Source: an uncultured bacterium
Lineage (GTDB): Bacteria > Desulfobacterota > BSN033 > UBA1163
NCBI GenBank assembly: GCA_938002255.1
Contig: CALLAL010000013.1
Span: forward strand, 62,001 to 126,000
DNA: 64,000 nt
Direction: 5' to 3'
Shown here: one piece after another, positions 4,263-62,222 of the stretch
Layout of the letters: each line of letters starts with the position of its first letter
How positions within the stretch are numbered: the first letter of the stretch is position 1
Made by a program: the position numbers and the translations under genes
Notes under the pieces: model-generated
What the model was told of the DNA's origin: nothing
The model's database searches: none
What the model saw: only the letters and a program-made list of their open reading frames with translations

Positions 4263-5582
4263 ATGAGGCAACCAATGAATACCCAACCAAAGATCCTCGT
4301 GGGCATTATGGACGACCAGGCTGAAGTCTCCGGTCATTTTGATGGACCTTTTTGGGGAGATCAATTCGGGCCTGTTTCAGGCGGGTTTTTAGCCAAACCA
4401 GCATCTGGAAGCATAATTCTCCTTGACGGATCCGGCGACGAAATCTCTCGTTCTCCATACATCAAACTCGCTGCAGGGGAAAACTCTCTTTTCTCACTTC
4501 ATCGTGTTACCATCGGAACCCGCTTCCACTGGGAAAGGAGGGAAGACCAGACCTTTCAGGGAGATCTGATTCTCCGGCTTCGGGAGGATGGAACGATCTG
4601 CGCTATGAATGAAATCCCCATCGAAGATTACCTAATAAGTGTCATCTCTTCAGAGATGAATCCTGCCGCACCGATTGAATTTCTTAAAGCCCATGCCATC
4701 CTGTCGAGGAGTTGGGTTTTATCAGCACTGAATCAAATGAAGAAATCAAAAGGAACGGCCGCATCAACGGAAAGGATAACAGAACATGAGGTCATCCGGT
4801 GGTATGATCGAACAGACCACGATCTCTTCGATGTTTGCGCGGATGACCACTGCCAGCGTTATCAGGGAATCAAGAAGGCCATATCTGGTCAGGCTGAGAA
4901 AGCAGTGCGGCAGACTCAAGGGAGGGTTCTGACGTTTCAGAACGAAATCTGCGATGCCCGATACTCCAAAGCCTGCGGGGGTAGGACGGAAAATTTCGAC
5001 ACGGCCTGGGGGGATCATCCTGTTTCCTACCTGACGAGCATTTCAGACTCACCTCTTCTCCATCAACCCATGATTAACGAAAAAGAAGCCGAAGCCTGGA
5101 TCCTTTCAGAGCCCAACGCCTACTGTAACACAAGAGATACAAACCTCCTGAACATTATCCTTCCTGGTGTTGACCGTGAAACAAAGGATTATTTCCGCTG
5201 GAGGGTTGAATATACACGGACGGAATTAAAGGAGATCCTGAAAAAAAAATCTGGGATAGATTTCGGGACAGTGAAGGAAATCATCCCCCTTCAGCGGGGT
5301 CCGTCAGGAAGGATCTCTCGCCTAAAAATTGTTGGCTCGGGGAAAAGTGTGGTTGTAGGTAAGGAACTTGAAATCAGGCGCTGGCTTTCCAGGACCCATC
5401 TTTACAGCAGTGCCTTCGTCGTGACGGCTGACTCGGAGAGGTTTGTACTTTATGGCGCTGGCTGGGGACACGGCGTAGGGCTCTGTCAGATTGGCGCCGC
5501 AGTCATGGCAACCCAAGGATGTTCAGCAGATGAAATTTTGAGGCACTATTTTCCGAAAACAGATTTTAAGAAAATCTACTAA
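4263..5582 (+). CDS. SpoIID/LytB-domain protein of a peptidoglycan recycling operon
   Basis: The start chosen is ATG 4263, behind AAAGGGG with 5-base spacing (439 residues). An in-frame ATG at 4206 has no ribosome site. The SpoIID domain (about residues 95-400) includes IEDYLISVISSEMNP, with the glutamate shown to be catalytic in the clostridial and Bacillus SpoIID lytic transglycosylases, then AHAILSRSWVL, CDARYSKACGG and the C-terminal GWGHGVGLCQIGA. No signal peptide is visible, which is odd for a wall-acting protein and leaves its location open. It is the first gene of a run with an AmpG-like permease, MurU and AmgK, so a role in processing or sensing cell wall fragments is inferred from context. 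Confidence 0.85.
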   Translation: MRQPMNTQPKILVGIMDDQAEVSGHFDGPFWGDQFGPVSGGFLAKPASGSIILLDGSGDEISRSPYIKLAAGENSLFSLHRVTIGTRFHWERREDQTFQGDLILRLREDGTICAMNEIPIEDYLISVISSEMNPAAPIEFLKAHAILSRSWVLSALNQMKKSKGTAASTERITEHEVIRWYDRTDHDLFDVCADDHCQRYQGIKKAISGQAEKAVRQTQGRVLTFQNEICDARYSKACGGRTENFDTAWGDHPVSYLTSISDSPLLHQPMINEKEAEAWILSEPNAYCNTRDTNLLNIILPGVDRETKDYFRWRVEYTRTELKEILKKKSGIDFGTVKEIIPLQRGPSGRISRLKIVGSGKSVVVGKELEIRRWLSRTHLYSSAFVVTADSERFVLYGAGWGHGVGLCQIGAAVMATQGCSADEILRHYFPKTDFKKIY

Positions 5583-5597
5583 AATTCAGTTGGAATA

Positions 5598-6920
5598 ATG
5601 AACCATTTAGAAACGGAGAGAAAATTAAAACCTACTGACCGAAACCCCTGGGCCTGGGTTCCTTCTCTTTACATGGCTGAAGGGATTCCCTACACCATGG
5701 CTATGAGTGTTTCAGTGATCCTCTACAAGCGCCTTGGACTCTCCAATACTGACATTGCCCTCTATACGAGCTGGCTTTATCTTCCCTGGGTTATCAAACC
5801 CATCTGGAGTCCTCTGGTCAACCTTTTCAGGACGAAGCGATACTGGATTCTGTTGACACAACTGCTTGTCGGAACCTCCCTCGCCTCTGTGGCTTTCACC
5901 ATTCCAACGTCCCATTTCTTTCAAACCACCCTTGCCTTTTTCTGGCTCATGGCCTTCAGCTCAGCAACTCACGACATTGCAGCGGATGGGTTCTACATGC
6001 TGGGACTTCCAGATTACCATCAGGCAGCCTTTATTGGGGTGCGAACAACTTTTTACCGCCTCTCCATGATTTCCACTCAGGGCGGTCTGGTTATCCTTGC
6101 GGGAATGTTCGAGGGGAACGGTTACGATATTCCCATGGCTTGGTCCATCTCCTTTCTTGTGGTAGCCTGTATTTTTTTATCCCTTTTCATTTATCACTTG
6201 TTTATCCTTCCTTACCCGAGTTCAGACCTTCCGGCCTCCCGAACCTCTTCTGCATCTATGGTTCGCGAGTTCCTCTATCCTTTCCGCCTCTTCTTCAGAA
6301 AAAAGGGAGTCTTCTCCATTCTTGCTTTCCTCCTTTTTTACCGCTTTGCAGAAACTCAGATCGTCAAGATCATCGCCCCTTTTTTACTTGACCCCCGCAT
6401 AAAGGGAGGACTGGAACTTCATACCTCACAAGTTGGGATCATCTACGGCACGGTAGGGCTTATTTCGCTCATACTTGGAGGACTTTTAGGTGGATATGCC
6501 ATTTACAGAAAAGGCCTCAAGTTCTGGATCTGGATCATGGTCTGTACTTTGCATCTTCCGGATCTGGTCTATGTCTATCTTTCACAAGCCCTGCCTGAAA
6601 ACCTCTTGTTGATTAATCTCTGTATTGCCCTGGAGCAGTTCGGTTACGGTTTCGGCTTCACAGCTTATACGATGTTTATGATGATGATCTCAGAGGGTGA
6701 GCATAAAACGGTTGACTACGCCATTGCCACGGGAATTATGGCACTGGGCATGATGGTGCCCGCGATGTTCAGCGGCTGGCTTCAGGAGCAGATGGGCTAT
6801 TCGAACTTCTTCCTCTGGGTGATGATTGCAACGATCCCAGGATTTATGGTTACCGGACTCGTAAAGATCGATCCGGAGTTTGGGAAGAAGAACGAGAGGG
6901 TGGGATCAAGAGAGAGATGA
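5598..6920 (+). CDS. ampG: AmpG-like muropeptide permease (MFS)
   Basis: A 440-residue MFS permease with about 12 hydrophobic segments. The N-terminus has the AmpG-type signature [20 protein letters not shown], followed by [17 protein letters not shown] and [16 protein letters not shown]. AmpG imports anhydro-muropeptides (GlcNAc-anhydroMurNAc peptides) from periplasm to cytoplasm during wall recycling. The next two genes encode the MurNAc salvage enzymes MurU and AmgK, which supports this substrate over another sugar or an acetyl-CoA transporter. The gene starts 16 bases after the SpoIID-like gene, and its stop overlaps the murU start by 4 bases (ATGA), so the genes are translationally coupled. 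Confidence 0.85.
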
Positions 6921-12252: not shown

Positions 12253-12648
12253 CTAATCTTTGCCTTTTTTCTTCAGTAAGGTTAAGAGATCGGATTCTTT
12301 TATTGCCCTGGCGTTCGATTTGCTATACTCCATCTCCGTTTTCAGTTCCTCCTTCTTCCATTCTTTCTCTTTAATCATATGCTTCTCAATCCAATGGTCG
12401 AGGGCTTTGATGTCGAAGAGGACCCGAGCTCCAATCTTGAGGTAGGGAAGTTTTTTCTGAGAAGCCATCTGATAGATGGTATCCGTAGAGAGGCTGAGGT
12501 ATTGTCCTGCTTCCTTTGCTGTGATCAGTCGCCGGAGCTCCGGGATCTTCTTCATCCGGTCATCCATGCGCTCAAAATACTTTTCAGCCAAGATGTCCGC
12601 CAGCATATCTAAAAATTCTTTGATCGCAGGCCTTTCCTCTCGTCCCAT
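12253..12648 (-). CDS. Excisionase-type helix-turn-helix DNA-binding protein
   Basis: A 131-residue protein starting at ATG 12648 behind AAGGGAGATGAAAAG. Residues 40-92 match the HTH_17/excisionase (MerR-like) domain: LITAKEAGQYLSLSTDTIYQ, then KLPYLKIGARVLFDIKALDHWIEKH. The flanks are charged helices, and the C-terminal 40 residues are rich in Lys and Glu. Such proteins bind DNA as small architectural or regulatory factors. No integrase or phage gene is near, so it is more likely a regulator than a true excisionase. It lies 71 bases downstream of the receiver-LpxC gene on the same strand, with a structured spacer between, and may be co-transcribed with it. Confidence 0.8.
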   Translation of the reverse strand: MGREERPAIKEFLDMLADILAEKYFERMDDRMKKIPELRRLITAKEAGQYLSLSTDTIYQMASQKKLPYLKIGARVLFDIKALDHWIEKHMIKEKEWKKEELKTEMEYSKSNARAIKESDLLTLLKKKGKD

Positions 12649-12719: not shown

Positions 12720-14042
12720 TTATGATTTTTCTTCCCCAACGATCCCTTCCTTTATCTTTCTCATCATGGCGATATTTTCTGTATGACCCGTCAGGCGGGC
12801 AGTTACTCTTCCACGGATCGGACGGTTGAGTAGATAAAAATCCCCGATCAAATCAAGGATTTTATGCCTAACAAACTCATCAACAAATCTCAGTTCCGTA
12901 TTGACAATCTTTTCATCATCAACCAGAATAAAATTGTGGAGCCGACCCCCGCTGCCTAACCCCATCCGCTCCAGCATCTCGATATCTTTTAGAAACCCAA
13001 AAGTCCTCGCAGGGGCAATCTGCTCTTTGAACGTCTCCCTGTCTTCCAAGACGAAATCGAGGCTCTGCTGTCCAATCGGAGGAGGATAGTCCAAAAAAAA
13101 GCGAATGGAAAATGTCTCTGCTGGCTCGACGACGATGGATTTATTCTTGTGAACCACTTCCAATCTACGATCGATCACAATTTCTTGGACTCTCTCCTCC
13201 TGTTCCTCAACCCCAGCCTCTTCGATCATCTTGCAGAATTCCAGGGCAGACCCATCCATAATCGGAATCTCTTCAATCATCTTTACCATTAAATTGGTAA
13301 TACGGTACGCATGGAGAACGGCCATCAGATGCTCAATGGTCTTGGCTGTAGCCACTCCTTTTTTCAGACAGGTGGCAAATTCTGTCGTCTGGACATAATC
13401 CAGGTGAGCCGGGACAACCTCGTCATAAGAAATGTTTCCAAAAAGGATGCCACTATGAGGGGGAAGGGGTTGAAGCAGAAGACCTGTCTTCATGCCAGAA
13501 TGAAGCCCGGTACCGTAAAGAACGACGCTTTTTTTAAGCGTCCGTTGCTGGATGAATGAAGCTGACTTTTTCTTGGGAGGTTCTTCCAGAATCGCCGTCT
13601 CAAAGCTTAACGTCTGAGGATAGGTCTCATTCATTTCTGAGATGGCCTCTCGTGCAGGTTCTTCTTCCAATTTCTCCCGAGGGCCTTGGAGGGCTCGATG
13701 GATGGTTCGCAAAAGAACATCGAGGGAAATGGGTTTTTCAATAAAGTCGAAGGCACCTAATTTGACAGCCGCCATGGCCGTGGAAATCGTTGCGTGCCCT
13801 GAGATCATGATGACCTGGCAATCGGGGACCATGGTCTTCAGCCTTTTCAATACTTCGATGCCATCCATTCCTGGCATCCAGATATCCAGAAGGATGACAT
13901 CTGGATTGATCTTTTGGAAGGTGTCAATCGCTTCTTCACCACTCTTAACCGTTGCGACCTTAAACCCTTCGTCTTCCAAAACACCTGCAATGGACCGGAC
14001 CACTCTTTCCTCATCATCCACAATGAGGACTTTTTTTTCCAT
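12720..14042 (-). CDS. lpxC: Receiver domain fused to LpxC deacetylase
   Basis: ATG 14042 lies behind AAGGGAG (440 residues); an in-frame ATG 11 codons upstream lacks one. Residues 1-120 are an NtrX-like receiver with all key residues: D9/D10, phosphoacceptor D53 (LLDIWMPGMDG), S81 and K103 (FDFIEKP). After a 40-residue linker, residues 163-435 are a full LpxC. It has TIEHLMAVLHAY (catalytic Glu, Zn His), EIPIMDGSALEF, ARTFGFLKDIEML, FVRHKILDLIGD (Zn His and Asp) and TGHTEN (active-site His). LpxC removes acetate from UDP-3-O-acyl-GlcNAc, the committed step of lipid A synthesis in the cytoplasm. The intact receiver implies control by a histidine kinase. No other lipid A gene is near. Both halves look functional, and no stop or shift separates them. 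Confidence 0.93.
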   Translation of the reverse strand: MEKKVLIVDDEERVVRSIAGVLEDEGFKVATVKSGEEAIDTFQKINPDVILLDIWMPGMDGIEVLKRLKTMVPDCQVIMISGHATISTAMAAVKLGAFDFIEKPISLDVLLRTIHRALQGPREKLEEEPAREAISEMNETYPQTLSFETAILEEPPKKKSASFIQQRTLKKSVVLYGTGLHSGMKTGLLLQPLPPHSGILFGNISYDEVVPAHLDYVQTTEFATCLKKGVATAKTIEHLMAVLHAYRITNLMVKMIEEIPIMDGSALEFCKMIEEAGVEEQEERVQEIVIDRRLEVVHKNKSIVVEPAETFSIRFFLDYPPPIGQQSLDFVLEDRETFKEQIAPARTFGFLKDIEMLERMGLGSGGRLHNFILVDDEKIVNTELRFVDEFVRHKILDLIGDFYLLNRPIRGRVTARLTGHTENIAMMRKIKEGIVGEEKS

Positions 14043-14176
14043 ACGCTCTCCCTTCATCTGTATTCCCATTACCACAACCCGAATGAAGAATCAACCACTG
14101 GTTCGCATAAAGAAATTAGAAAGTTTAGCAGAGAGGACTTCCGTCAATCCCAAATCCAAATTTGGCTTTCCCCATT

Positions 14177-15205
14177 TCAATAATTTCCTAATCCTACCCT
14201 CTCCTTTAAAAGATCTTGATCCTCCTCGGAGGCAATAACAACCCCTGTATTTCCCAATCTCACGTTGATCAAGCCAGTGGCTTTGACCTCATCGTAGGCA
14301 GTGATCAACTCTGAAATCTTAGGGCTCCGATATCGTCTCATCTGAAATTCCGGAAAGAAGGCAAGGATGGTAAAAGGAATCTCAGGATCAACATCAAAGA
14401 GCAGTTTAGCGATCTTCTTCAACTGAGAGGTTTCTACGAGATTGGGGATGTAAAGGGAGAGCACTTCAAGAACAAATCCTCTTTTGAGGATTTCCTCGGG
14501 AAGCTTCAGGATGTTACGGTTAAAACAACCGGTCAGCCATTTGTGGTCTGTCGCATCAAAGGCTTTGATATCTAGCCAGAAAGAGTCAACCCCTGCTGCC
14601 TCCAGGCGATCGAGATTTTGAGGCGTCAACCCATATCCATTCGTTTCGATGAGAACCCAGAGATCTGTTTCTGTCTTGATCAGTCGAGTGCATTCCACAT
14701 AGAATTCTGGACAGCAGATGAGGTCTCCTCCGGTAAAGGCCACGATATTGCGGGCAGGTCCCCATCCTTGAGGACTCAAAACAATATCCTTTTTCTGAAT
14801 GACCCTCGGACAGTCGGCGGATCGTTTTCCATACATCACACAGGCACCGCAGCAGCGACAGGATTCATGGGCATGAAAGGCAGTGGCTCTTTCCCTCGGT
14901 TCTCGAATCGTCACCCCTCTTTCGTATTCTTTGCAAGCCTTCAAAACATCGATCGGGGACCACCATTCTCCAGTGGCTTTCTTCGTAAAGGACCAGGAAT
15001 GACATTTCCTGCAGGAAAAATTACATCCTGATTGATAGATGGAAAGGTAATTTTCAGGACGGGAAAGATGGGCAGCTGTTATCAGTCGAAACAAACCCTG
15101 ATCAGTTTCCTTTAAGGTTGCTTCACAGGCGAGGGCTTTTCCCCCTTCGACCTCTACATAGCAACTCCCTTGTGGGTAGCCCTGTTTAATCAAGTTGCAT
15201 CGCAT
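14177..15205 (-). CDS. Radical SAM protein with extra cysteine cluster, PflA-like
   Basis: A 342-residue protein. The radical SAM motif is CNFSCRKC (C-x3-C-x2-C, residues 61-68) within YLSIYQSGCNFSCRKCHSW. Between about residues 110 and 135 a second cysteine group (CRCCGACVMYGKRSADC) looks like a site for a further iron-sulfur cluster, as in glycyl-radical enzyme activases with a ferredoxin insert. TGGDL replaces the usual GGEP-type motif. The C-terminal half (LWVLIETNGYG, SFWLDIKAFD) completes a PflA-type barrel. No glycyl radical enzyme is nearby, so the substrate is unknown. The ATG at 15205 has no clear SD sequence. It shares a 92-base divergent promoter region with the sirtuin gene. Confidence 0.8.
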   Translation of the reverse strand: MRCNLIKQGYPQGSCYVEVEGGKALACEATLKETDQGLFRLITAAHLSRPENYLSIYQSGCNFSCRKCHSWSFTKKATGEWWSPIDVLKACKEYERGVTIREPRERATAFHAHESCRCCGACVMYGKRSADCPRVIQKKDIVLSPQGWGPARNIVAFTGGDLICCPEFYVECTRLIKTETDLWVLIETNGYGLTPQNLDRLEAAGVDSFWLDIKAFDATDHKWLTGCFNRNILKLPEEILKRGFVLEVLSLYIPNLVETSQLKKIAKLLFDVDPEIPFTILAFFPEFQMRRYRSPKISELITAYDEVKATGLINVRLGNTGVVIASEEDQDLLKERVGLGNY

Positions 15206-15297: not shown

Positions 15298-16095
15298 ATG
15301 GCGAAATGGGGTGAACAACAACATACGGAAGAAAAAATAAAGCAGGTGGCGCAATGGATTATCCATTCCAAGAGGACGGTCGTCTTTGGTGGAGCAGGTC
15401 TTAGCACAGAATCTGGCATTCCTGATTTCCGAAGTCCAGGGGGTGTTTGGGATAAGTATAATCCTGAAGATTTTTATTACCAGAATTTTATTGCCAGTGA
15501 GGCTTCCCGCGAAAAATATTGGCAGATGGCTACGGACATGTATGAACCGATGAAGAAGGCTCAACCCAATCCTGCCCATCTCGCCATTGCTGAACTGGAA
15601 AAGATTGGTAAACTCGATTGCGTCATCACGCAGAACATCGATGGCCTGCATCAAAAAGCCGGAAATTCGGAAGAGAAGATCATCGAACTTCATGGAACAG
15701 CCATGCACGTGACCTGCTTGCACTGCAAGAAACGATATGACCGAGATGCGATTCAAGAACGAATTCGAAGGGGAACTAAAGTACCATACTGTGATGACTG
15801 TGGAGGCCCTCTCAAACCTGCTACCATCTCCTTTGGTCAAGCCATGCCTGAGCGAGAAACTGAAGAGGCTTACCAACGTTCATCCGCATGTGACCTTTTT
15901 ATTGTGATCGGATCCTCTCTGGTCGTCCAACCTGCTGCTTCGATGCCTCTCATAGCTAAAAGAAATGGAGCAAAATTAGTCATCATCAATCGCGATCCCA
16001 CTCCATATGATAATCTGGCAGATATCCTAATCCACGGTCAAGCCGGTTCCATTATGGCGGAAATCTTAAATGCAGTGAAAAAGCAACTTTCATAA
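15298..16095 (+). CDS. cobB: NAD-dependent protein deacylase, sirtuin (CobB-like)
   Basis: A 265-residue Sir2 protein behind AGGGAGATAGGGCG. All family motifs are present: GAGLSTESGIPDFRSPGGVW for NAD binding, TQNIDGLHQKAG, the catalytic His in ELHGT, four zinc cysteines (CLHC and CDDC), ISFGQAMP and VIGSSLVVQPA. It removes acyl groups from protein lysines using NAD and controls, for example, acetyl-CoA synthetase. Whether it prefers acetyl or succinyl groups cannot be told: the Tyr/Arg pair of SIRT5-like deacylases is not obvious. It is divergent from the radical SAM gene. Confidence 0.92.
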   Translation: MAKWGEQQHTEEKIKQVAQWIIHSKRTVVFGGAGLSTESGIPDFRSPGGVWDKYNPEDFYYQNFIASEASREKYWQMATDMYEPMKKAQPNPAHLAIAELEKIGKLDCVITQNIDGLHQKAGNSEEKIIELHGTAMHVTCLHCKKRYDRDAIQERIRRGTKVPYCDDCGGPLKPATISFGQAMPERETEEAYQRSSACDLFIVIGSSLVVQPAASMPLIAKRNGAKLVIINRDPTPYDNLADILIHGQAGSIMAEILNAVKKQLS

Positions 16096-54386: not shown

Positions 54387-57300
54387 CTAACGGATAATGA
54401 TGACTACTCCGCCGGACCCCTCTTCGCCGCTGCCGGGTTCCTCTATCGTTGTCCATCCTGAGCCTGTTATGGGGATCTCAATCAATCCTTCATCCGGGTC
54501 GTTAGATTCAATCCCGAGATACACCATTTGTTGGTCTTCAATAGAAGGTGTAAAAGAGACGGTTATTTCGCATTGACGGGCAATGCCAAGCGTTTCGGGC
54601 ACCAAAGGACAGTTGTGCGACCCGGTAAAATCCAACGAACCTGATAGCCAAATATTACTTATGGTGAGGGGTTGATATCCCGTATTCCGAACAGTAAAGA
54701 CCTGCGATGCTGTTTGGCCTATCGGCAAATTAGGATACCAATAGCCAAAATCATAGCTCAGTGGTGAGACATCTATATCGATTGTGGGTCTTTGCTGCGC
54801 CTGTTCTTCTGTTTCCGAGCAAACTGCGTCTGTTACGGCTGAAGAATAAGTTACAGTGGCATTGGTCTCCTGTGGGGTTGCGCTTGAATCAATGGCAGTA
54901 ATAGATGTTACCACTGGGCGGATGTCAGTATCCACAGGTGTTATGGATGTCCACTTGACAATACCGCAGGATGCCCCGATATTGCCGATGGAATCAATCT
55001 TCATAACAAAGGCGTCATAATTTGGACCATATTGTGTACTTCTGAAAGAGTTTGTATAACCAGCGAGAATATAATCACCCTCTGAGGTCTGTTCTATGGA
55101 ATAAGCTACATCAACACGACTTCCTCCATAGGTCTTCTGCCATTCTATATTGCCCGTAGGATCGAGTTTCACAACCCAGATGCCACCAGTACCGGATACT
55201 CTACCCATCAAGATCCCTGTTAAGATATAGCCCCTGTCTGAAGTCTGTCTGATTGAATATCCTTGACTACCGTAATATTCACCGTCATTTCTTCCATAAA
55301 TCTTTTGCCACTCAATTTCTCCTGTGGAATTGAGTTTCAATACCCATGCACTACTGGTTGATAGGGTCGTTCCCACAACAATAAATCCGCCGTCCATCGT
55401 TTGCTGGATATCAAAACCATAATCATCAGAAGTTGTTCCATATGCTTTCTGCCATTGGATATTGCCATCAGAATCGAGCTTCAGAACCCACATATCGCGA
55501 TTATTATTTGCAGTGAATGACCTTGTTACACCTGCAACGATATATCCTCCATCAGAGGTCATCTGGATTGAGTTTGCATAATCATAATAGTTGCCTCCAT
55601 AAGTCTTTTGCCACTGGATATTGCCGGAAGAATCAAGCTTCAGAACCCAGAAATCCTGTCTCTGACCTGAATGGAGGTTATAATTCCCGGCTACGATATA
55701 TCCATTATCTTGAGTCTGTTGAATGGAAAGTTCTTCCCCCCAATCACCCCAGAAGTTATAAATTCCACCCCCATATGCCTTCTGCCATTCTATGTCCCCA
55801 TAATAATCCAATTTAAATATCCATAGGCCATAGGTATTCGACTCTATCACCATTATATATCCACCATCAGAAGTTTCCCTTATATCACAGGCCCGTTCAT
55901 GTTCTCCCCCAGAATGATAATAAAATTTTTCCCACTCAACATAGCCAGAGGAATCTATCTTCACTACCCAAGAGGCATTTCTTGGAGGACCAAAAGAGTT
56001 GGTCAATCCAACAGCAATAAATCCACCATCCGAAGTCGGCCTGATCTTAGAAAAATATTCTCCTCCGTCTCCACCGTAATATTTTGCAAAGGTGGCAAGT
56101 GGTACTGGGACCGACAGGGATACAGGGATTGTCAAGTTTCCTCCATTAGAAGTGATGGAAAGAGTATGGGAGTATGTTTGATTCTGATTAAGCCCTGACC
56201 GGTTTGCATAGAGATAGACGGTTATGCTGCCTCCTGCTGGAATCATCCCGCTCATCTGTGAGGCAGTGAGCCATGCGGGCATATCAGCAGTGATATTCCA
56301 TGTCAATGCAGTATCCGAACTTGTATTCTGAATCGTAAGCGGTAGCCTCTTCTTTGCCTCGGCAAAGTCAATGGAGGAAGGGGTGATTGAAACGAATGGA
56401 GGCACATTCATTCTCACCTCAACACTGCCTGAACCACTGTTGGAGGTGAAAGAGACAGTATGGATATATTCGCCAACAGGCAGTCCACTCCTGTTCACCT
56501 CAACATCAACATAGGCTGCGCCGCCGCAATCGTTAATTGTCCCGCTCATCGGCGAGAGAGAAAGCCAGGAAGGGGGGGCGTTTATAATCGACCAGTTAAG
56601 TGGTGTCACACAATATACACGCTCGTTTCCTACATAAATACTCGCCCTTGTCATTCCATCCCCCATATCAAGGACTTGAGGATACAGGGATAGGGCAGGG
56701 GGTATCCCATAGCCAGACAGGGTGACATTGACAACAGGCTCATCCGGGTCGTCTGAATTTATTGATAAAGTTGCCCACCATGCCATGTATATGTTTGGCG
56801 GTGTAAAGGTCACTGTGATAGTGCAGGATGCGCCGGGATGTAATAAAGCGGGGCAATTGTTCGTCTGGCTGAAATGCTGAGGGCTGATACCACCTATAGC
56901 TATCCCGCTGATATTAAGGTCTGCGGTGCCATCGTTTACTACAACAACCGTTTGAGAAGCGGTATTACCATATGGCACATCAATAAATTCAATCTGATTC
57001 GGTGTCACTCGAATATCCGGTTCATGCAAGAAGTTTATTGTGGCGACGACATCTTCGTGTGTACTGGGATCTCCATCGGAAACTCTCAAGCGAAGTGTGT
57101 TGAAATCAGCCGGGACACACCCATTGATCCGAAGGAGGGCAGTGGTATCTCCATATTGATAGTCAAGTTCCACCTCGGGTGGTACATTGGGTGTATCCCA
57201 TACGAAGAGGTATGGCTCCTTCCCCCCTGATACCCTGAAGACTTGAAAGTCATTACAGGCATTCAAGGTAACACTTTCTGGATAGATGCTCACAGGCCAG

Positions 57301-60300
57301 AGATCGCTTTTACCTTCATAAAAGACATAGAGCATTCCGGAATAATCACGCCAAGTGCCTGGTGATAAAGGTTCTGGTGCTCTGGCGAGAGGATCAATGA
57401 TCAGCACATCATCGCCAACAAAGGGATTGAGGTCTCCGGCGGTAACAAAGGTACCGAAGCCGTAACGTTTGCCTGAATGTGCTTGATCTCCCTTAATTAA
57501 AAAATCCTCTGGGAATACTCCTGAGCTGGCTGAGCGGTCTATCAGGTGGATAACCCCTGCGGGAAGATTGCTTGACCCATAAAATCCCCAGACCTGACCG
57601 GGATCTTCCTCACCAATATTTCCAGAAGCACCGCCGATCCTTCCCGGAGCTCCAACCAGCAGGTCTTTGTAACCATCATTGTTTATATCTCCCGTTGCAA
57701 GAGATGCCCCGAATCGAGAAATAGTTGTGGAGCCGTAGATTTTTGCCCTTGCTAATTGGTTTACTCCATGGACTCCTGAAGAAGGCATGGAATTTCCCTG
57801 AAGGATATATACCAATCCGATATCACCTCGGCTGGTATTGCCATATCTCAAAGATTCACGCGGAGAAGCGAGAATTACCTCTCCCTTGCCATCGTGGTTC
57901 AGGTCTGCTACAAGCATTGCACGCCCGATCTCCCATCCTGGGCTGAAGCCATAAGGGGATTCAGTGACCTTAGGACCAAGGATCAATACATCCTGTTCGC
58001 CGGTATAACTGGTGGCATTCAGGTAGCCATCATCCCCGCCGAAATTGGTTTGTCCGTAAAAGAGAAAGACGGCACCCTTTCGAGCAACACTCCCTTCACC
58101 GGAGATAAAGTACATTACGTAATACTGAGGCGCCCCTACCAGAAGGTCATCCAAACCATCTCCATTAATATCTCCAACCGCAATTCCCTGACCCAGACCG
58201 TCTCCCTTATATTCGCGCTGCCATTCACTTTCGCCTGCAATGACTGCTCCATTTATGGATGTCGGGATATTGTTTACTTCAATATTTTTTGGCAGAGTAT
58301 CACTTCCAAAGATAACATAAACCCTTCCTGACCAGTCTAAGTCTGGCTGTCCTGGATTGAAGGGCTGCCGCGGTGCAGAAACGACAATATCTCCGTAGGC
58401 ATCACCGTTTAGATTTGCCACTGCTACTTGATAGCCAAGTTCTCGCAGATTATCTCCTCTGATGCGGACATCATACTCACCGTAAGGGATATCATACGAG
58501 CGATGCCATTGTTCCCTTGGGCGCCCGTAATACACATAGGCAGCACCGGCGATGTGACCTTTAATTCCTATCTCGGGATGTGTGTCTTGATCGGTGTCTG
58601 GGTTTAAAACATGGTAACCCTCATCACTCAAATCCGTAGTTCCTATGAGAAGGTCATTTATACCATCACCATTTATGTCTCCTATGGCAAGCGAGTTTCC
58701 GATGCGTTCACAGAAGTTGCTATCCTGTGCGGAGCAGGCTGTATAATCGCCCGAAATGACCACATCCCAGTGGCGGTCTGTGGCATTGATATTCATATCT
58801 ATATATTGCTGGCCTGTAGCTAATGAAGTACCCGACACAGGGCCAAAAGCAATATAGACAGCCCCCATATACTTTCCAGAACCTGATTGTTCCTGCGACA
58901 CACCCACGATAAGGTCATTGATGCCGTCTCCGGTAATATCACCAATCAGGGCACTCCTTATATACCCATTCGGCTTTCCAAAGGCAATAAGGTCCTGATC
59001 TCCCCAGGCGGCACTCTCGGCCTTTTTCAGCATAAAAGTTTTTGAATCCCACGATTGACCATACCCAATGGCAAGATTTACAAGGCTTAGTCTGAAAGTG
59101 AGAGTCTGCTCCTGCCATCTACGGAGATCTTCAGGAACTTTGAAGGTGAGCCAATCCGGTCCGCCCGGCACGGATGGCACTTGCGTGATACTCACGGGAT
59201 TGATCGAGACACCTGTTGGATTTCCTTCAGAATCGGAAAACGTGATTGTCATATCTTCAGGATAAGGACTGAAGTGGTCACCAATCACCGTCACGATATC
59301 CCCGATATAACCGCTGGAAGGGCTTACTTCGGAAATTGAAAGCTCTTGATAAGGAGGCAGTCCTATTGCCTGAGATGGCCCCATTCTCCAGAGATCACGA
59401 TTGCCCGGGGCAGAGGGATCCACCAACACAAGCTCTATCCTGCCAGGATCATCCATTCCTGCACAATTGGCCATGAATGAATTCCAGTTGAGATTATCTA
59501 TACAGCTACAATCAACCAGTTGACCATTCCAGTATACCCTGAATACATCTCCACACATCTCACTAAACCCCAACCCCCAGACATACCAAGAATTCCACTC
59601 ATAGTCCCATTGAATCCCATCAATAATCGGCGCCTCAATGACCGTTACATCGTAGTATTGAGGGTAAGGCACCTCCCGCCCAACTTTGTCAGGATAATGA
59701 TATTTACCGCAGGAGCCCTGGACATCAAGGCTCACGGATTGTCTATCCAGCCCCGCAGGTAACCCAAAAACCTGGAGAGTATGAATATCCGCACCTGTAT
59801 TTGGGTCGTCTCCTGTAGTAAAATTGCTCACAAGGAATCTATTCAAGCTTCTTGCTGTTGAGGGGACATTTACATCCTGTATCGTTATCCTTCCCTGGTC
59901 AATCCCCAAAAGGTCCAGGACAAATTTCCCGACCCTTGAAATCCTGCCAACGAAGCTGTTGAACCCGCCGTTTGTGAAGTCTGCATAAAGTCCGAGTGTA
60001 TCAGTGGTATTGGTAAAGAGGATGTGTGGGTCAACACCGGGATAAGGTCCGACTACCTCGATGTTCCACGCCGTGGCCTGTGTGGGAGCAACGTTTAGGA
60101 CATCTCTAATTATATAAAGTATATCCAAAACTCCCTCGACAATCTGTCTCGCAACCTCTATCGCAGGCAACGCCCATTGGCAGAAGAAAAAACATATTGC
60201 CTCTCCTGCAATTAATGCACGGTCCACCCACCTAAGAACACTGATAATATCATTCAAAATACCTAAGACCTGTCCGACATTACAAATAGCCTCTCCTGTT

Positions 60301-62222
60301 GTTGAATGGCTTAGAATTTCATTGATCTGATCAAGTTGCTGATTGATCAAGAAAAAGATATCGCTTCCAAATACGGAATCCAGGGCAGTGAGCATCTGGG
60401 GATCGTAATCGGAAGGAAGGGAATCTTTGATATTCTGGAGAAATGTATTTATACGATTGAAGTTTTCTTCTATCTGCGCCCATTTCTCCTGAGGGACATA
60501 AGGCTTTACAAGCTGTTCAAGCTTTCCGAATGTCCTCTGGACATTGAGTATCAGGAGGTCAAACTCATTGGCTGCCTCATTCCCCTTAATATCAGGCGTT
60601 GGGTCAGAAGCAGGTTGAACATGAAAGTTTAGAGAGTTAGACATGTTCGTTCCGTCATAGGCATAGACCTCAACATCTTCAGTTGTATCAATGAAAACAA
60701 ATGGGACGACCACCTTCAAGGTAGTCTCTGTAGCCTCAAGAACAAAGCCCTCTTGTTCTCTCTCGGATCCTCTAAAATAGACGCCCATGACATTCTTGTC
60801 AGGAGTAAAACCGCTACCTGTCAGTGTAACAATAGATCCCGACTGACCCGTATCAGGAGAGATACTCTTCAGTGATAGTGCAGGGCTTGTTCTATTTATA
60901 TCTACTCTTGCAGGATGACTCTCTATCCCGATCTTCTCAGAAAAAACCTGAAGGTTGTTCAATCCATTATTCAGTCTCACAGGTATCCGGAAAATACCTG
61001 TGCCTGAGGAAATGACTGTAGCATCTTCTGCCCCACCCCTTGTTATGACATTTACGCCAGGTAAAGTTTTTCCATAAATAAAAACCGTCTCTTCTGAGGT
61101 AACCCTTGGATAAGAAATTATTTCAGGGGGGCCGAGAACGGTAATTGTAACTTGGTCTCGAGGGCTTTCAGCATCCGCATTATCCCTCACAACAAGTGTA
61201 AATGTATGTATCCCTTCTGCAAGTGCTACAACTGGTTTTACCACATCCTCAGGATCGGGTGTTCCAGTCCATGTGTAAGATGCAATGGTTCCATCTGGGT
61301 CATGAGAACCACTCCCATCAAGCTGAACATCCATGATGGTTTGCCCTTCGGGGAGGGCGATGACCTGGTCAGGCCCGGCATTGGCCACAGGAGGATTATT
61401 AACTCCATGAATGATATTTAATTTGACCTTTAAGGTCTCGGGATATGTTCGATGACCCACACGTAAATGGATGGTCCCCTCATAAAGACCTGTCTTGGTA
61501 TCGGAAGGAATGGTGAGCCGTAGGGTAACCTCGTAAGGGGTGTGCATCTCAACTTTATCAAAAAAGTGAGGGTTGATGTTGATAAAGGGTTTCAATTCCG
61601 GAGTGATCCATAGATTTGCCTTTTTCAAATCCGTTCTGCTAATAAAAGCAACCTTTAACTCCTTGGTTGTTCCTCTTCCCAAGGTTTCTTCTACCCTTTC
61701 TGGAACCCAGGTAATAGTATGTTTTTGACCATGGCCATGGTGGTGTTGAATCGCTCTGAAGGTTTTCCAGCCTCCTTTATTGGATTCGAGGGTTATACAA
61801 TACCCCCCTTTAAAGCTTTTGTTGTGCTTCCTTTGAACCTGTTCAACAACATAGACAAAATATTCACCTTTGGTTGGAAGGACTGCTGTAATCTTGTTTG
61901 GGAGAGGACTCCGGTCTATCTTGAAGAAGGGTTTCAATCTGGAAGTCAGAATCAGAGTAGCCTGTTCGCCCCTGTGAGAGCCAGAAGGATCAGAGCTTAA
62001 CGTTATGCTTACTTTTTCTCCCTTCTTCCCTTCAAAGATATAAGCATCAATATCTAAATGAAAATGTTTGTCTTTTCCCCCAAGGGTGGAACAGAGTTGT
62101 TTTGTCCCCATGTTTTCAGGAAGTTTCCATGTGGCATGAGCCGTTAGCGGCAAGGAAACAATTAATCCCAGCGAGACAATGACCGCTAAAAATCCAGAAT
62201 AAATTTTTACTTTCGAAATCAT
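54387..62222 (-). CDS. Giant exported multidomain protein with two propeller-like regions
   Basis: A 2611-residue protein behind AAGGGGGG. Signal peptide 1-30 (ends TAHA). Order: beta-rich start; PKD domain about 278-364; IPT/TIG about 447-536; helical Cys-containing segment about 541-724; second IPT/TIG about 961-1055; seven FG-GAP repeats about 1090-1610 with calcium-type loops (GDINGDGINDLLIG, GDINNDGYKDLLVG); an ASPM/HYDIN-like domain about 1734-1840; two BACON-like domains about 1844-2037; seven repeats of SDGGYIVAG...WVLKLDSSGNIQWQKTYGG type about 2047-2420; a final ASPM/HYDIN-like domain 2480-2605. Seven repeats each fit two seven-bladed propellers, the first integrin-alpha-like. The C-terminus (GSGGVVIIIR) has no known sorting signal. 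Its role is probably surface adhesion or matrix; it sits next to the exopolysaccharide operon on the same strand. Confidence 0.85.
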   Translation of the reverse strand: MISKVKIYSGFLAVIVSLGLIVSLPLTAHATWKLPENMGTKQLCSTLGGKDKHFHLDIDAYIFEGKKGEKVSITLSSDPSGSHRGEQATLILTSRLKPFFKIDRSPLPNKITAVLPTKGEYFVYVVEQVQRKHNKSFKGGYCITLESNKGGWKTFRAIQHHHGHGQKHTITWVPERVEETLGRGTTKELKVAFISRTDLKKANLWITPELKPFININPHFFDKVEMHTPYEVTLRLTIPSDTKTGLYEGTIHLRVGHRTYPETLKVKLNIIHGVNNPPVANAGPDQVIALPEGQTIMDVQLDGSGSHDPDGTIASYTWTGTPDPEDVVKPVVALAEGIHTFTLVVRDNADAESPRDQVTITVLGPPEIISYPRVTSEETVFIYGKTLPGVNVITRGGAEDATVISSGTGIFRIPVRLNNGLNNLQVFSEKIGIESHPARVDINRTSPALSLKSISPDTGQSGSIVTLTGSGFTPDKNVMGVYFRGSEREQEGFVLEATETTLKVVVPFVFIDTTEDVEVYAYDGTNMSNSLNFHVQPASDPTPDIKGNEAANEFDLLILNVQRTFGKLEQLVKPYVPQEKWAQIEENFNRINTFLQNIKDSLPSDYDPQMLTALDSVFGSDIFFLINQQLDQINEILSHSTTGEAICNVGQVLGILNDIISVLRWVDRALIAGEAICFFFCQWALPAIEVARQIVEGVLDILYIIRDVLNVAPTQATAWNIEVVGPYPGVDPHILFTNTTDTLGLYADFTNGGFNSFVGRISRVGKFVLDLLGIDQGRITIQDVNVPSTARSLNRFLVSNFTTGDDPNTGADIHTLQVFGLPAGLDRQSVSLDVQGSCGKYHYPDKVGREVPYPQYYDVTVIEAPIIDGIQWDYEWNSWYVWGLGFSEMCGDVFRVYWNGQLVDCSCIDNLNWNSFMANCAGMDDPGRIELVLVDPSAPGNRDLWRMGPSQAIGLPPYQELSISEVSPSSGYIGDIVTVIGDHFSPYPEDMTITFSDSEGNPTGVSINPVSITQVPSVPGGPDWLTFKVPEDLRRWQEQTLTFRLSLVNLAIGYGQSWDSKTFMLKKAESAAWGDQDLIAFGKPNGYIRSALIGDITGDGINDLIVGVSQEQSGSGKYMGAVYIAFGPVSGTSLATGQQYIDMNINATDRHWDVVISGDYTACSAQDSNFCERIGNSLAIGDINGDGINDLLIGTTDLSDEGYHVLNPDTDQDTHPEIGIKGHIAGAAYVYYGRPREQWHRSYDIPYGEYDVRIRGDNLRELGYQVAVANLNGDAYGDIVVSAPRQPFNPGQPDLDWSGRVYVIFGSDTLPKNIEVNNIPTSINGAVIAGESEWQREYKGDGLGQGIAVGDINGDGLDDLLVGAPQYYVMYFISGEGSVARKGAVFLFYGQTNFGGDDGYLNATSYTGEQDVLILGPKVTESPYGFSPGWEIGRAMLVADLNHDGKGEVILASPRESLRYGNTSRGDIGLVYILQGNSMPSSGVHGVNQLARAKIYGSTTISRFGASLATGDINNDGYKDLLVGAPGRIGGASGNIGEEDPGQVWGFYGSSNLPAGVIHLIDRSASSGVFPEDFLIKGDQAHSGKRYGFGTFVTAGDLNPFVGDDVLIIDPLARAPEPLSPGTWRDYSGMLYVFYEGKSDLWPVSIYPESVTLNACNDFQVFRVSGGKEPYLFVWDTPNVPPEVELDYQYGDTTALLRINGCVPADFNTLRLRVSDGDPSTHEDVVATINFLHEPDIRVTPNQIEFIDVPYGNTASQTVVVVNDGTADLNISGIAIGGISPQHFSQTNNCPALLHPGASCTITVTFTPPNIYMAWWATLSINSDDPDEPVVNVTLSGYGIPPALSLYPQVLDMGDGMTRASIYVGNERVYCVTPLNWSIINAPPSWLSLSPMSGTINDCGGAAYVDVEVNRSGLPVGEYIHTVSFTSNSGSGSVEVRMNVPPFVSITPSSIDFAEAKKRLPLTIQNTSSDTALTWNITADMPAWLTASQMSGMIPAGGSITVYLYANRSGLNQNQTYSHTLSITSNGGNLTIPVSLSVPVPLATFAKYYGGDGGEYFSKIRPTSDGGFIAVGLTNSFGPPRNASWVVKIDSSGYVEWEKFYYHSGGEHERACDIRETSDGGYIMVIESNTYGLWIFKLDYYGDIEWQKAYGGGIYNFWGDWGEELSIQQTQDNGYIVAGNYNLHSGQRQDFWVLKLDSSGNIQWQKTYGGNYYDYANSIQMTSDGGYIVAGVTRSFTANNNRDMWVLKLDSDGNIQWQKAYGTTSDDYGFDIQQTMDGGFIVVGTTLSTSSAWVLKLNSTGEIEWQKIYGRNDGEYYGSQGYSIRQTSDRGYILTGILMGRVSGTGGIWVVKLDPTGNIEWQKTYGGSRVDVAYSIEQTSEGDYILAGYTNSFRSTQYGPNYDAFVMKIDSIGNIGASCGIVKWTSITPVDTDIRPVVTSITAIDSSATPQETNATVTYSSAVTDAVCSETEEQAQQRPTIDIDVSPLSYDFGYWYPNLPIGQTASQVFTVRNTGYQPLTISNIWLSGSLDFTGSHNCPLVPETLGIARQCEITVSFTPSIEDQQMVYLGIESNDPDEGLIEIPITGSGWTTIEEPGSGEEGSGGVVIIIR

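Follow-up and report, generated by a model that had tools for sequence, protein, structure and literature searches.

Introduction

Can a two-component system act directly on the enzyme that commits a bacterium to lipid A synthesis? The question is raised by a gene in a 64,000-nucleotide stretch of DNA from an uncultured bacterium of the phylum Desulfobacterota (contig CALLAL010000013.1, positions 62,001 to 126,000; hereafter, the window). The gene encodes the deacetylase LpxC behind an N-terminal receiver domain (REC). LpxC is a control point of lipopolysaccharide (LPS) synthesis and a drug target. In the literature consulted, LpxC is regulated by proteolysis, by protein partners, or at the level of transcription; a built-in phosphorylation switch would add a mode of control. 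The NtrY/NtrX system of alphaproteobacteria lowers lpxC transcription, and in R. sphaeroides the loss of NtrYX raises lpxC mRNA approximately nine-fold and LPS two-fold (PMC7240162, PMC12444477). The original prediction, made from the letters of the window alone, held that phosphorylation of the receiver could set LPS output directly. In this study, we aimed to evaluate this proposal by comparing the fused gene with its relatives, with the NtrX family, and with the kinases that may serve it.

The fused gene and its two domains

The open reading frame at 12720-14075(-) comprises 451 codons from its most upstream start. The ATG at 14042, located behind the Shine-Dalgarno-like sequence AAGGGAGAG (14054-14046), is the likely start of the fusion gene and gives a protein of 440 aa, the numbering of which is used here (Table 1). 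Pfam Response_reg matched residues 5-114 (E 1.4e-32), and Pfam LpxC (PF03331) matched residues 166-431 (E 1.5e-84), with positions 1-267 of the 268 in the model covered. The protein scored 251.9 bits against the NCBIfam lpxC equivalog TIGR00325, for which the cut-off is 187.25. The AlphaFold model has two confident domains (mean pLDDT, 87), and the linker is disordered in it (pLDDT below 50 at residues 122-155). When the LpxC half was compared with solved structures using Foldseek, the best match was P. aeruginosa LpxC (5n8c, E 9.6e-33).

The receiver residues D9, D10, D53, S81, and K103, on which the original prediction relied, are all present and do not vary in an alignment of 53 fusions. 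The LpxC active site, which had been described as complete, is equally invariant in this alignment at E237, H238, T347 (the Thr of the PART motif), H393, K394, D397, and H420. We take E237/H238, H393/D397, and H420 to be the equivalents of E78/H79, H238/D242, and H265 of E. coli LpxC, respectively. By its full-length match and active-site residues, the protein can be assigned as an LpxC, with deacetylase activity inferred from the sequence. A second, stand-alone LpxC in the genome would have refuted the proposal; none was found in the source genome (3.27 Mb, 98% complete). LpxB is present, and as the sole LpxC of the genome the fusion protein should therefore make the lipid A of this bacterium.

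An error of assembly or reading frame is refuted as the source of the fusion. The order of the source bacterium yielded 15 LpxC-positive genomes, and in all of them LpxC is fused, in a shared frame of 440-473 codons; the architecture recurs in dozens of families in independent assemblies. Nothing was found in favor of an artefact. Only in locus L169 (genome G117) do REC and AAA-LpxC occupy consecutive separate frames, which is probably a frame error of that assembly.

Table 1. Coordinates of REC-LpxC, its parts, and its neighbours in the window.
Feature	Position	Strand	Evidence or remark
REC-LpxC fusion gene, response regulator with LpxC output domain, 440 aa	12720..14042	-	Pfam, NCBIfam; architecture shared by 70 or more genomes of the phylum sample
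NtrX-type receiver, aa 3-118	13689..14036	-	Response_reg 1.4e-32; 155 vs 123 bits; tree 95/84
Phospho-acceptor Asp53 codon	13884..13886	-	D in 98/99 fusions and 37/37 NtrX
Linker, aa 119-165, variable and disordered; place of the lost AAA+/HTH part	13548..13688	-	pLDDT, identity, dN, lengths
LpxC catalytic domain, aa 166-440	12723..13547	-	LpxC 1.5e-84; Foldseek 5n8c
Catalytic Glu237 and zinc ligand His238	13329..13334	-	98/98 fusions having the column
Zinc ligands His393 and Asp397	12852..12866	-	98/98 fusions
Catalytic His420	12783..12785	-	98/98 fusions
Shine-Dalgarno-like AAGGGAGAG ahead of ATG 14042	14046..14054	-	Sequence
HTH_17/excisionase-family gene, downstream neighbour	12253..12648	-	Circuit role unproven
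Radical SAM gene, conserved upstream neighbour	14177..15205	-	Genomic context only
Sirtuin gene	15298..16095	+	Beside REC-LpxC

Origin of the receiver from NtrX

Among the response-regulator models, the NtrX model was the best for the N-terminus of REC-LpxC. The receiver gave the best match of the genome to the NtrX receiver profile (155 bits), and the next match among the NtrC-family regulators retrieved from it scored 123 bits; chance similarity was rejected on this basis. In the receiver tree, the fusions and NtrX formed a group (95/84) apart from 28 other receivers of the genome. Helix 1 of a receiver carries kinase-specificity positions. Asp23 of this helix occurs in 98% of the fusions, 100% of NtrX, and 15% of other receivers.

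The source genome encodes approximately 28 NtrC-family regulators, none of which lies beside NtrY. No separate NtrX was found in it, and no receiver of the genome is nearer to NtrX than that of REC-LpxC. The sigma54-type AAA+ and Fis-type helix-turn-helix (HTH) domains are absent from REC-LpxC, 12720-14042(-). With an NtrX-type receiver but without the AAA+/HTH parts, the protein thus descends from NtrX and is not itself an NtrX.

The label NtrX-like, used in the original prediction, proved to stand for more than similarity, since relatives still have the rest of NtrX between REC and LpxC. Three records hold proteins of approximately 740 aa composed of REC, a sigma54-type AAA+ domain, an AAA lid, and LpxC. 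We aligned 18 distinct REC-AAA+-LpxC sequences of approximately 730 aa, which are often encoded directly downstream of ntrY, and scanned nine of them for HTH_8. The sigma54 contact motif GAFTGA is lost in 18/18 of these intermediates, whereas the free NtrX sequences displayed with them retain a G-S/A-F-x-x-A loop. The Walker B Asp-Glu is lost in most intermediates and Walker A is kept; none of the nine scanned for a Fis-type HTH reached the HTH_8 cut-off. The structure model of a full-length NtrX-LpxC intermediate had good domains, but its pTM was only 0.42. In the intermediates, including L038, L040, L041, L166, L168, and L171, the sigma54 activator domain is either decaying or kept for another use.

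REC-AAA+-LpxC is likely to be the ancestral form of the fusion. The AAA+ part is absent from the shorter fusions of the clade. The forms that retain AAA+ are not monophyletic in the LpxC tree; hence, repeated loss of AAA+ is probable. Outside the fusion clade, nearly all of 38 loci (L043-L080) from Desulfobacterales, Desulfuromonadales, Rokubacteria, and Methylomirabilota have a free lpxC followed directly by ntrY, in most cases with ntrX behind it, which points to a conserved lpxC-ntrYX neighbourhood. As lpxC precedes ntrY in this order, simple read-through could not have yielded NtrX-LpxC and a rearrangement was needed.

Distribution and single origin of the fusion

LpxC was found in 362 of the 395 genomes sampled in the phylum, and at least 70 of these 362 carry the fusion, spread over 24 family codes. 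The count is made up of 12 genomes of the source bacterium's own family and 58 further fused genomes recovered when 80 weaker-scoring genomes were opened. It is a lower bound because some genomes of the sample were left unopened. Named records extend the fusion to Schekmanbacteria, Nitrospinae, and Tectomicrobia; it also occurs in records of metagenome-assembled genomes named Polyangiaceae, Acidobacteria, and Thermodesulfovibrionia, names that may be unreliable. In the LpxC-domain trees, a single branch separates all fused forms from the rest (100/100, recovered in 100% of bootstrap trees). The architecture, for which a search across genomes and a placement on a tree had been suggested, is therefore widespread and forms one clade, and one fusion event is the simplest history. 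The switch, if it is real, serves uncultured and anaerobic bacteria of many families.

Seven genomes of another phylum group, the group of the genome that holds locus L016, contain a diverged REC-LpxC (L329-L335) with PARSF instead of PARTF and TSH instead of TGH. These copies fall inside the fused clade (100/100). Four of the seven genomes also hold a free LpxC elsewhere; a fusion can thus coexist with a second LpxC, and the diverged form may have another role there. A separate observation concerns the single-contig genome G378 (2.07 Mb), which has two REC-LpxC genes (L180 and L203) and no NtrY at E 1e-60.

Conservation of the phosphorylation site

The phospho-acceptor Asp was found in 98/99 distinct fusions, the exception being a truncated frame, and the switch Lys was found in 99/99. 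The acidic pair is present in all complete fusions. The zinc-binding and catalytic residues are retained in 98/98 fusions with the column, that is, in all full-length copies. Within the order, the dN of REC was approximately 0.1 at dS above 1, with synonymous sites near saturation; the dN of the linker was 0.6-1.2, at an identity of 20-36%. The linker varies in length from 23 to 63 aa over the fusion family and has approximately 47 residues in the source protein. Judged from these substitution patterns, selection has kept the phosphorylation site across a very old family while the AAA+ part could decay; no other argument for a role of phosphorylation is as strong.

The fusion family is not free of vestigial parts, as the clear decay of AAA+ in the intermediates shows, and the receiver might likewise be a leftover that serves only as a phosphorylation-independent fold or interaction module. 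Receivers that work independently of phosphorylation commonly lose the phospho-Asp and Lys. Across 24 families, 98-99/99 sequences still have Asp53 and Lys103 despite the decay of the linker and AAA+, and we regard a leftover receiver as very improbable.

NtrY as the putative partner kinase

The original prediction had suggested looking for an orphan NtrY-like kinase, and such a kinase was found in the source genome at G000:C8:1235-3406. It comprises NtrY_N (Pfam cut-off reached), HAMP, PAS, HisKA, and HATPase_c domains and matches NtrY end to end (5.8e-198, 45% identity), and the next kinase reached 8e-38. No NtrX and no other response regulator was found beside this gene; an SmpB-like frame comes next. 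The kinase gene lies on a different contig from REC-LpxC. As ntrY is unlinked in the source lineage, the pairing of NtrY with REC-LpxC there rests on orthology.

In approximately 30 other loci, ntrY is immediately upstream of the fusion. The kinases of these loci have 720-760 codons and are of the NtrY type, with NtrY_N, HAMP, PAS, HisKA, and HATPase_c. The two genes can be very close: in L013 the kinase ends at 5992 and the fusion starts at 6001 (8 bases between), and in L040 the kinase ends at 4612 and the fusion starts at 4636 (23 bases between). Where ntrY is not adjacent, a strong NtrY was detected in 44/48 fused genomes tested; of the four without a detectable NtrY, two are of low completeness. 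No NtrX adjoined NtrY (within up to 1.5 kb) in 29/30 fetched NtrY loci. The exception was genome G292 (L277), which has a complete NtrY-NtrX pair besides an unlinked REC-LpxC.

These loci also bear on whether the receiver is phosphorylated by some other kinase, or by acetyl phosphate, instead of NtrY. The unlinked ntrY of the source lineage, the approximately 48 kinase-like matches in the genome, and the few fused genomes without a detectable NtrY leave room for this. However, it is unlikely in view of the adjacency of ntrY to the fusion, the NtrX-type helix 1 of the fusion receivers, and the retention of NtrY without an adjacent NtrX.

Proposed control of LpxC by NtrY

Direct two-component control of LpxC, as originally predicted, is strongly supported by the conserved switch residues, the single origin from NtrX, the ntrY genes upstream of the fusion, and the orphan ntrY. 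The support is comparative only. The architecture, its conservation, its single origin, the orphan kinase, and the NtrX-type kinase-facing helix are observed; phosphotransfer, the mode of control (activity, stability, or place), and its direction are inferences.

We propose that a single ancient fusion joined NtrX, the response regulator of NtrY/NtrX, to LpxC. Decay of the AAA+ and DNA-binding regions would have followed, ending in the source lineage with their deletion and leaving the NtrX receiver on a flexible linker ahead of LpxC. The phosphate on Asp53 would come from NtrY, the membrane kinase that has become an orphan. The phosphorylated receiver may then alter LpxC output, most likely enzyme activity, through contact or dimerisation, and LPS synthesis would thereby be set post-translationally. 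We put the probability that NtrX was turned in this way from a transcription factor into an enzyme regulator, with phosphorylation by NtrY setting LpxC output, at roughly 0.7; there are no biochemical data. A membrane sensor kinase would thus probably control LpxC directly, and not via gene expression or proteolysis. Since NtrYX lowers lpxC transcription in alphaproteobacteria, a lowering effect on LpxC is a weak first guess.

The receiver could instead act on the amount or place of LpxC, if phosphorylation altered proteolysis of the FtsH/Lon type or docked LpxC at the membrane on NtrY. E. coli LpxC is controlled by proteolysis, and membrane localisation has been proposed for N. meningitidis LpxC, according to a review (PMC12444477). 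The C-terminal tail of fused LpxC is short, with a median of 17 residues past the last catalytic His compared with 28 in free LpxC, which leaves room for the replacement of a C-terminal degron. In the source genome, the search for a LapB homologue gave only general TPR similarity and no match above the curated cut-off. The short tail and the missing LapB fit, indirectly, the replacement of an E. coli-type degron, and the linker of REC-LpxC is long and disordered. However, no recognisable degron or membrane element was found in the fusion. The short tail speaks against an E. coli-type degron but shows no other degron, and LapB-like TPR proteins are hard to recognise. An action on amount or place is therefore doubtful, although it cannot be set aside.

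With control of LpxC activity by NtrY as the preferred reading, the fusion on balance seems to represent a widespread, undescribed system, NtrY to NtrX-LpxC, which arose once and shed its transcription machinery. Envelope sensing would feed into the rate of LPS synthesis, NtrX having been fused to a possible target enzyme. The series from free NtrX through NtrX-LpxC with a broken AAA+ to REC-LpxC would illustrate how a transcription factor becomes an enzyme regulator. It would also give a clue to the open question of what NtrY senses: its signal should be one to which the cell has to adjust its lipid A output.

Relation to known systems

The NtrY/NtrX systems of R. sphaeroides, Caulobacter, and Brucella share with the proposed system an NtrY-type kinase, an NtrX-type receiver, and an output on lpxC/LPS. 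Classical NtrX, however, is a DNA-binding protein with dozens of genes in its regulon, and its effect on lpxC is transcriptional and probably indirect; REC-LpxC has lost the AAA+/HTH parts, and its receiver belongs to the enzyme itself. The FtsH/LapB/PbgA (YejM) system of E. coli resembles the proposed system in that the same committed step is under post-translational control. E. coli LpxC is degraded via its C-terminal tail, whereas the fusion has a putative N-terminal phosphorylation switch, a short tail, and no LapB above the cut-off. Regulators of the CheB, PleD, RpfG, and RssB type also have REC ahead of an enzymatic or effector domain and are phosphorylated on Asp. The enzymatic outputs of known response regulators act mostly on signalling molecules or proteins; in contrast, the output of REC-LpxC is a core biosynthetic enzyme.

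In the same broad bacterial group, a two-component regulator dedicated to lpxC is already known: for DVU2934, a response regulator of D. vulgaris, lpxC was the only target identified (PMC3333781). This link is transcriptional and involves separate proteins. In the LpxC-FabZ protein of Bacteroidetes (NF009667, PRK13188), LpxC is also fused to another domain, but the partner is a catalytic domain of the lipid pathway and there is no signalling domain. REC-LpxC scored 207 bits against NF009667, for which the cut-off is 465. A literature search of partial coverage, in which absence is not proof, returned no description of a receiver on LpxC, and neither "receiver" nor "fusion" occurs in the text of a 2025 review of lipid A regulation (PMC12444477). 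A response regulator with an enzyme as its output is already known; LpxC as the output and the NtrX ancestry appear to be new.

Neighbouring genes

The HTH_17 gene lies directly downstream of REC-LpxC in 10/12 close relatives and is conserved only among them. The suggestion that this gene belongs to the same control circuit is undecided, as there is no link besides neighbourhood. The radical SAM and sirtuin genes stand beside REC-LpxC in nearly all close relatives, and the radical SAM protein, 14177-15205(-), is weakly similar to YjjW-like activases, below the cut-off. Elsewhere in the window, 54387-62222(-) is a single open frame of 2611 codons.
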